This document shows, piece after piece, positions 8,950 through 10,078 of a DNA stretch of 22,318 bases. Source of the stretch: Deltaproteobacteria bacterium (lineage in GTDB: Bacteria; UBA10199; 2-02-FULL-44-16); the NCBI GenBank assembly GCA_016203825.1, contig JACQMA010000121.1:1-22318 (forward strand), given 5' to 3'. A program made the translations under genes and the position numbers. Positions within the stretch are counted from its first letter, which is position 1, and every line of letters begins with the position of its first letter. The notes under the pieces are model-generated. The model was not told the origin of the DNA. It saw nothing but the letters and a program-made list of their open reading frames with translations, and did not search any database.

Positions 8950-10078
8950 ATGTCGTTTCGTAGAACACGGTTCCATCGGTTGTGATGAAACGAAAGAGAG
9001 CCTCATCCTCTGTCACCTGAAACCATCCGAAGCCATAAAGATCCTCGGCGTCGCCGCCGGTCGCCAAGACTTCGGCACCTTCGAGAGTTGCATTGACCGT
9101 TTTGAGATCGGCGCCACCCGTTCCAATAACGAGTTGCTCGACTTCACAGCCATCCATGCTGGTACGAATATGTGAGAAGCTGTGCGCATGACCAGAGAGG
9201 ATGAGGTCAAACCGTGATTGCGTTCCATCGCAGAGGATATTCGGTTTTCCTACAGGATCTTCGCCGAGCAGGACCGGAATATTATCTTCACCGTCACTGC
9301 CATGGTTCCCGTTGTTGTAGAGAGGATGGTGCATGACCATCGCTTTCCAGGTGGCGGTGCTCGTTGTAACTCCATCATACATCCACGTCGGGGCATCGTA
9401 GCCATCCTCGGCTTCGTCGTCGCCGTCGTAGCGGAAGTGAGGATATTCGGAATCAAAGAGGAAAAATTCAAGGAGCGGTGTTGTCGCACCTTCAGGTGCG
9501 GTGAAGTTGTAGTCGATCGCCGCCATACGCCAATTGGGATCGATCTGCGAATATTCCACTTCGGCTTGAGGAGTGCCATCATTGTCATGATTGCCGACGA
9601 CAGGATAAAAAGGGAGGCCTAAGAAATCATAGACATCGTGGTAGTAGTCTTGCCAAAGTTCATCGTCGACACTGTCAACGCCATCGGAATAAAAGTTATC
9701 CCCGAGGGTGACGATGAACTCACACTCTTCCGTCGCACAGTAATCACCAATCGCCTGGGCAACCGCTTCTTGATCGTCGCCACCGGTTCCCCAATCGCCA
9801 AAAGCCACAAAGGAAACGGTGTCACCACTCCCGGCACCACCTGCGGAACCACTGCCGCTGTCATCGTCTTCATCGTCGGTGTCACCATCGTCGGCGCTGC
9901 CGGAAGGAGACGCGTTGCCGTCAGGCAGCGGCGTTCCCCGAAATTCGGTCGTCGCATCACATGCCGCAAGAGCAAGAAGAAGCAAGAATGCTGTCATCCT
10001 GAGCAACGCGAAGGATCCCGTGGTTACACGAGATTCTTCGTTCCACTCAGAATGACATCGTTGTGTGTTTAGTTGCAT
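8939..10078 (-). CDS. Purple acid phosphatase-like metallophosphoesterase, lipoprotein
   Basis: 379 residues from the ATG at 10078. This start is chosen for its strong AGGAGG (10083-10088) and its overlap with the end of the upstream gene. The five metallophosphoesterase blocks are in order: GDWG (Asp95), GDNFY (Asp127, Asn128, Tyr130), GNHD (Asn163, His164), MHHPLY (His250, His251) and GHAHSFSH (His297, His299). The Tyr in GDNFY is the one that binds Fe(III) in mammalian tartrate-resistant acid phosphatases, so a dinuclear iron or iron-zinc phosphatase is likely. Lipobox LAAC puts the lipidated Cys at 40, followed by an acidic Gly/Ser linker to about residue 87. The N-terminal region is unusual: codons for residues 8-29 come from the palindromic element at 9992-10057. 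A start at the ATG at 9997 would give 352 residues, but has a poor ribosome-binding site. Confidence 0.88.
9992..10057. repeat. 66-bp dispersed palindromic element inserted in frame
   Basis: The ends are TGTCATCCTGAG (9992-10003) and CTCAGAATGACA (10046-10057). The 26-nt arms match at 19 of 26 positions as an inverted repeat. From memory, this sequence type (TGTCATTCTGAGCGAAGC and relatives, read out as CHSE..EESR) is a dispersed palindrome found in many unrelated genomes. Here it starts and ends exactly on codon boundaries of the phosphatase gene (TGT ... ACA, 22 codons). Removing it joins MQLNTQR directly to [11 protein letters not shown], a textbook lipoprotein signal peptide. No transposase is nearby. 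Confidence 0.85.

Follow-up and report, generated by a model that had tools for sequence, protein, structure and literature searches.

The window considered here, that is, the whole stretch of 22,318 nucleotides that was analysed, is contig C35 of a deltaproteobacterial genome (G000; 84% complete, 1.1 Mb). It contains a gene for a calcineurin-like phosphatase lipoprotein whose first codons include a short, strongly palindromic repeat. The features of this locus are as follows.

8939 to 10078, minus strand: calcineurin-like phosphatase lipoprotein gene (PF00149) carrying the element
9959 to 9961, minus strand: codon of the lipobox cysteine, residue 40 from ATG 10078
9962 to 9991, minus strand: hydrophobic core and lipobox (supported by an uncharged run and by hydropathy)
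9992 to 10057, minus strand: two TGTC-tagged REP units in inverted orientation with their tags outside, 66 bp, in frame, 22 residues
9992 to 10017, plus strand: second REP arm, inverted, TGTCATCCTGAG-CAACGCGA-AGGATC, C/G type
9995 to 9997, minus strand: second in-frame ATG, within the element; database protein P0001 begins here
10032 to 10057, minus strand: first REP arm, TGTCATTCTGAG-TGGAACGA-AGAATC, T/A type
10069 to 11220, minus strand: upstream gene for a GH113-type glycoside hydrolase (ORF start assigned mechanically)
10076 to 10078, minus strand: most likely start codon, ATG
10083 to 10088, minus strand: Shine-Dalgarno sequence AGGAGG of the upstream start, duplex energy -10.3 kcal/mol

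The stop codon of the GH113-type gene (10071-10069) overlaps the phosphatase start. Two homologues, P0011 (640 aa) and P0014 (647 aa), have the hydrolase and phosphatase domains joined in one protein, and these fusions suggest that the association of the two genes is old. Also on the minus strand, between 11258 and 20792, lie six similar genes in a row, 518-552 aa in length and several with lipoprotein-like starts, which we take to be peptide-binding-protein-like.

Residues 8-29 of the phosphatase lipoprotein correspond to the 66-bp palindrome at 9992-10057. Read on the minus strand, its first codon is TGT and its last is ACA, both on codon boundaries, as an earlier sequence-only reading of this DNA had claimed; the span given in that reading, 9992 to 10078, comprises the element and another 21 nt, up to the ATG at 10078-10076. 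The palindrome itself is well borne out. It is self-complementary at 46 of its 66 positions, more than any other 66-mer in the window (mean 16.5, standard deviation 5.1), the runners-up reaching 42 (at 6126) and 40 (at 7457). Likewise, when the window was folded every 4 bases and the better of both strands retained, the lowest energy among 5564 66-mers, -36.0 kcal/mol, belonged to the element (mean -16.8, standard deviation 4.2); the segment one base off, 9993-10058, folds at -36 kcal/mol with a z-score of -7.6, and 0 of 200 shuffles did as well. The element is not unique in the window by hairpin strength alone, and what distinguishes it is its membership in a repeat family. A search of the window against Rfam returned no family at the gathering threshold. 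The second strongest 66-nt hairpin, at about 1741-1822 (near 1749; -34.4 kcal/mol), sits between a minus-strand ORF at 963-1712 and a plus-strand ORF at 1836.

Several start codons could serve the phosphatase gene. Against the 16S tail, ATG 10078 has a predicted duplex energy of -10.3 kcal/mol, GTG 10096 one of -4.8 and ATG 9997 one of -1.9. By the same measure, the seven ATG starts of other window genes range from -3.0 to -12.4, the non-ATG ORF starts GTG 1836 and TTG 11220 give -1.7 and -2.4, and an alternative ATG of the GH113 gene gives -6.5, three further positions that are not exact starts being ignored. Weak start signals are thus not rare among window ORFs (-1.7 to -4.0). ATG 9997 is paired within the hairpin, with an unpaired probability of 0.0, and on these predictions a start at ATG 10078 is more likely than one at the hairpin-buried codon. 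The contrast fits the earlier view that AGGAGG at 10083-10088 favours translation of the inserted codons; and because the two ATGs share a frame, any ribosome that starts at 10078 would go on to translate the element.

The competing view is that the element is not translated, the gene starting at the element's own ATG 9997 and the remainder of the element serving as leader. The predicted database protein P0001 (352 aa) does begin at this codon, a LysA-like decarboxylase gene (L202, see below) shows that start donation by an element ATG can happen, and excerpts of the survey of tagged REPs by Di Nocera et al. (2013; PMC3733652) warn that many N-terminal REPs may be untranslated. Against this stand the weak, hairpin-paired start signal of ATG 9997 and the far stronger signal with ATG 10078 in the same frame, from which ribosomes would read through anyway. 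Moreover, the short form would have no basic residue before the hydrophobic core, and long ORFs from element ATGs are not in excess (at least 100 codons at 11 of 190 ends, versus 21 and 17 in the other frames). We regard a start at ATG 9997 alone as unlikely. The suggestion that it gives a second, shorter start gains from the database protein and loses by its poor signal and its pairing.

With the element in place the n-region of the export signal grows from 7 to 27 residues, as had been proposed, and its net charge falls from +1 to 0. The hydrophobic core and lipobox (LAAC) are intact, and the arginine that precedes the core, Arg27, is now element-derived. Altered targeting, which had been raised as a consequence, is possible but not indicated, since the element's arginine replaces one before the core. 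It could be argued that the insertion damaged the signal and that the gene is decaying, the n-region being so much longer and net neutral. However, the ORF is open across 379 codons, the Pfam match spans the catalytic domain, and core and lipobox are untouched, so that decay is highly improbable. LspA cuts lipoproteins immediately ahead of the lipobox cysteine, and for this reason the 22 inserted residues should leave with the signal peptide, the mature phosphatase being unchanged.

The proximity of the hairpin to the start raises the question of regulation. A hairpin of high stability, its first base 21 nt downstream of the A of ATG 10078, might have been retained to regulate translation of the phosphatase; RNA roles have been proposed for REPs elsewhere (excerpts of PMC3733652), and in a longer fold the Shine-Dalgarno sequence pairs with leucine codons beyond the element. 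Yet the predicted accessibility of the Shine-Dalgarno sequence and ATG is low but nearly equal with and without the element, the respective unpaired probabilities in three fold windows being 0.10/0.30 with versus 0.16/0.23 without, 0.14/0.19 versus 0.21/0.22, and 0.26/0.49 versus 0.29/0.47. This does not sustain the claim of an effect of the hairpin on translation. When a short leader that stops at the element is folded, the Shine-Dalgarno sequence is 61% and the ATG 90% unpaired. Pairing in the family is, moreover, conserved per arm rather than along the long hairpin (see below), and retention for regulation appears very unlikely.

Comparison with homologues is consistent with a late arrival of the element. 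Element-type peptide motifs were found in the first 70 residues of 0 of the 119 other listed homologues (the best 120 of 170 proteins found, less the window's own protein), so the ancestral phosphatase likely lacked the element. The earlier claim that the element-free form is ancestral is favoured by this count and weakened by distance: the listed homologues are at most 52% identical to the window protein, and the empty site is reconstructed from remote homologues with signal peptides of differing length. A homologue is present in 7 of 46 genomes of the phylum, this one included, and in none of three other genomes of the family.

Much of what can be said about the nature of the element comes from its relatives. 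We collected 39 distinct full elements from G000 and related genomes, with 78 arms, of which 11 without a recognisable inner box were omitted. Each arm has the form TGTCATYCTGAG-core-AGRATC and is a palindrome of its own, because the Y of TGTCATYCTGAG and the R of AGRATC covary: the combinations are T/A in 33 arms, C/G in 33 and T/G in 1 (Fisher p 2.5e-18), complementary in 66 of 67 scorable arms. A T arm is paired with a C arm in 29 of the 39 elements (two-sided binomial p 0.003 versus one half), as it is in the window, so the long hairpin is not the conserved feature of the family. The unit under constraint seems to be the single arm. Its outer stem is 5 bp (ATYCT/AGRAT) and starts with complementary AT (TGTC-ATYCT..AGRAT), while the cores are variable, 8-28 nt in length, and fold somewhat oftener than shuffled sequence (48% versus 25%). 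The window element carries the TGTC tag at both outer ends.

REPs are not known to leave a target duplication, and the footprint of this family is similar. A looser pattern gave 95 full elements in GTDB genomes and in loci of relatives, one of which, at a locus end, was dropped. None of the other 94 has a direct target duplication that reaches 4 bp; shorter flanking duplications occur in 2 at three bases, 6 at two and 18 at one. A MITE with target-site duplication was rejected on this ground. The element boundary is sharp in the 94 copies except for 45% T at position -1, these copies having been found by patterns that include the TGTC tag.

Of the 99 genomes searched, 10 carry the strict full pattern (9 of 46 in the class, 1 of 53 outside), and a reversed-pattern control gave 0 matches. 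Within G000, a DNA search returned one complete copy, that of the window, and six partial matches. At least one of these, L007 on contig C19, was rejected as an element unit; judged by eye, it lies inside a FolK-like frame and is probably due to chance. A degenerate 12-base search of G000 allowing one mismatch found 26 places versus 4 for its control, which leaves many of the single units in this genome uncertain. The window copy is thus a pair with tags outside in a genome that also has single units, though the census pattern itself selected pairs. A sister form, built on the same scaffold but with the stem ATTGC/GCAAT, was found in 16 of the 46 genomes that represent the class; G000 has 6 copies, and the control gave none.

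An exact 27-bp arm, TGTCATTCTGAGCGAAGCGAAGAATCT, extends much farther. It is found in at least 120 stretches in GTDB genomes, and the 80 matches listed carry about 17 phylum-level labels, as counted from titles and on our assumed assignment of orders and families to phyla. Carriers include the complete genome of Candidatus Brocadia pituitae and records of Mucilaginibacter, Winogradskyella and Chryseobacterium not titled as MAGs; most others are MAGs, and some of the phylum labels may be binning errors. The same 27-mer matched 24 stretches in IMG/VR. A Y1 transposase (PF01797) was considered as the mobiliser and tentatively set aside: PF01797 occurs in 48 of 60 genomes with no visible link to copy number. 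No hit was obtained in G000 (84% complete) or in G036, which has three strict full copies, and G029, with 10 hits, has no strict full copy.

The phosphatase is not the only gene to carry the repeat. Of the 39 full elements, ten belong to an ORF that Pfam recognises, five being in its interior and five at its N terminus, a count that covers Pfam-recognised ORFs and is not exhaustive. Open frames run through full elements inside valyl-tRNA synthetase (ValRS, L189), SMC (L210), squalene-hopene cyclase (L216) and HemE (L203); in a sensor protein (L214) the copy, also in an open frame, sits where the kinase domain gives way to the receiver domain. Five relatives lack the HemE copy. The ValRS copy is likewise absent in five aligned relatives, the nearest of the same family and 85% identical; eight genomes were searched, of which G023 is the carrier and G028 and G033 did not align across the site. 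The HemE and ValRS loops hit by the element vary in length among relatives. N-terminal copies are those of DHODH (L191), NfeD (L205), FliP (L207), the LysA-like decarboxylase and the window phosphatase.

The lengths of these copies bear on how the frames have stayed open. The five interior copies are 67, 71, 76, 79 and 82 bp, none divisible by three and four leaving a remainder of one, yet their frames are open; it follows that a few bases beyond the palindrome were gained or lost, and that the exact 66-bp fit in the window need not equal the extent of the insertion. The exact cut in the phosphatase gene may thus be a coincidence. Among N-terminal copies, four of five are divisible by three (66, 69, 72 and 78); the remaining one, in the LysA-like decarboxylase, is 77 bp, and that gene starts inside the element. 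Family-level selection for coding was rejected, since only 13 of 39 strict and 32 of 95 looser elements have lengths divisible by three. Indeed, the lengths in the looser census show no preference among the three remainders (32, 33 and 30 of 95), and in the absence of such selection the copies found in frame seem to be those that survived. Among the strict 39, the only entry frames ever open are 0 and 1.

Several of these loci show further peculiarities. At the same place in SMC, the congeners G021 (L210, CHSEHVRFAQ...) and G010 (L233, HPEPVEG...) carry different repeat-like peptides, suggestive of a tolerant site hit repeatedly. HemE of G021 (L203) ends in a sister-repeat-like peptide (CHCEEPQATKQSK), and HemE of G036 (L224) has another repeat-like insert (PLTPTLSHKGRG). 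In the LysA-like decarboxylase gene (L202:3001-4382), the frame is closed upstream of the REP pair, and in a listing that extends 40 codons beyond the element the only ATG, GTG or TTG is the ATG in the last REP-pair codons, so that the pair seems to have supplied the start codon. A general start-codon-donor role for the family was rejected on the ORF counts given above.

By eye, a signal-peptide-like segment follows three of the N-terminal copies, those of the window phosphatase, NfeD and FliP. The closest parallel is FliP of G021 (PF00813), where a 72-bp element lies in frame after GGAGGGAAAATGAAAATT. The N terminus reads MKI-CHSEPQAKNPGKIGILRSYALRMT-PVITSVSLLLLFPLDVFAQA, then FliP, with the signal-peptide-like core after the element. 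As in the window, the upstream start signal is the stronger one (-9.8 versus -2.4 kcal/mol for the element's own ATG). In the congener G010, whose FliP is 88% identical where the two match, this position instead holds GGGAG, an ATG and the n-region MDRKLRSRFV, and the element peptide is absent from FliP of the four aligned relatives (G010 and three more; G031, with its gene in two pieces, was left out). In NfeD of G021, by comparison, the upstream start signal is weak (-2.9). The recurrent position at signal peptides is the unusual part; the kind of element is already known.

The element, its family, its frame, its arm structure and the Shine-Dalgarno contrast are computed directly, and from them we infer the insertion and its exact extent here, translation, signal function and cleavage. 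The account that we consider probable begins with a non-autonomous hairpin element, an inverted pair of TGTC-tagged REPs, inserting between codons 7 and 8 with no visible target duplication. The 66 bp would have entered in a stop-free frame and added 22 codons, and ribosomes starting at ATG 10078 would read through them. The signal peptide would still work, its core and lipobox untouched and the element's last codons (LLRMT) restoring an arginine before the core. Lipidation and then cleavage before Cys40 would discard the 22 residues, leaving the mature phosphatase as it was. Our preferred reading is that an element of a known type entered in frame at a site that tolerates insertion, with neutral or near-neutral consequences.

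What is already known fits this picture in several respects. Excerpts of Di Nocera et al. (2013; PMC3733652) describe CGTC/TGTC-tagged REPs, the tag often being TGTC, with stems starting AT/AT, pairs with tags outside and in-frame intragenic copies, and state that no dedicated transposase is known for CGTC-tagged REPs. The window family shares with this superfamily the outer TGTC tag, a stem whose first two positions are complementary AT, and in-frame intragenic copies; the window copy is, in addition, an inverted pair whose tags lie outside. It differs from published families 1-4 as they appear in those excerpts, which have 8-9 bp stems and mostly 4-5 nt loops as opposed to a 5-bp outer stem and variable core, and it bears far more phylum labels than the five given for CGTC repeats. 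Compared by description, then, the window repeat is not one of the four published families and is at most a further one.

The same excerpts place the Rickettsia palindromic elements RPE-4 and RPE-6 in the CGTC superfamily, whose features mostly fit, and the resemblance to such elements noted from the window sequence is in this sense sound. RPE-4 and RPE-6 likewise lie in frame in ORFs, in a different host, and the likeness is by description and not by sequence. In-frame insertion in otherwise conserved genes, the criterion applied to RPEs, is found for the window phosphatase, ValRS, SMC, HemE and squalene-hopene cyclase. An NCBIfam scan of the phosphatase protein gave no hit to an RPE model.

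There is also precedent for a repeat in a signal peptide. In Yersinia, a YPAL/RU-2 repeat in YPO1552 forms part of a predicted signal peptide by in-frame fusion (Delihas 2007, as quoted in excerpts of PMC2229807). As in the window, a mobile repeat is fused in frame at a signal peptide, but the Yersinia repeat is 168 bp, hydrophobic and makes part of the signal itself, whereas the 66 bp in the window lengthen the n-region before an existing core. REPIN/RAYT systems share inverted REP pairs with the window element, though with a GTAG tag (excerpts of PMC3733652) in place of TGTC, and no Y1 transposase was found in G000. The QMITEs of Coxiella are also small repeats sometimes in frame in ORFs; according to excerpts of PMC5896051, QMITE2 copies are about 130-180 bp and mostly have 7-13 bp direct repeats, unlike the window element.

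Both the superfamily and the presence of a repeat in a signal peptide therefore have precedents. Literature searches by repeat sequence or peptide motif returned, judging by titles, no relevant paper and no name for the repeat; a strict pairing of the Rickettsia palindromic element with signal peptide matched none, looser terms gave a few papers, and the excerpts of RepRanger (PMC12306157) contain none of the element motifs asked for. As far as these searches go, the family with the ATYCT/AGRAT stem and its position in an n-region are undescribed. The locus shows how a hairpin repeat can enter a gene and be read by ribosomes with the mature product perhaps spared any consequence, so that little harm may result from the insertion. 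It also extends protein-coding palindromes beyond Rickettsia-like cases to a repeat sharing an exact 27-bp arm across many phyla. One tentative and rather doubtful generalisation is that n-regions of signal peptides are safe harbours for coding REPs, where the insertions would be translated but their residues removed by signal peptidase, so that mature exported proteins would stay unchanged and the insertions persist. If true, the class would open with three cases, the window phosphatase and, in G021, FliP and perhaps NfeD.

Finally, REP pairs of this family also occur within a larger multicopy element, at L253, L261, L263, L267 and others in G021 and at L249-L264 in G026. It has terminal inverted repeats GGGAGTGGTGGAAAATG / CATTTTCCACCACTCCC, and by eye four copies are flanked by 5-bp duplications (ATCAT, ATTTT, TAAAT and TTTTG), because of which a MITE seems to carry the REP in G021 and G026.
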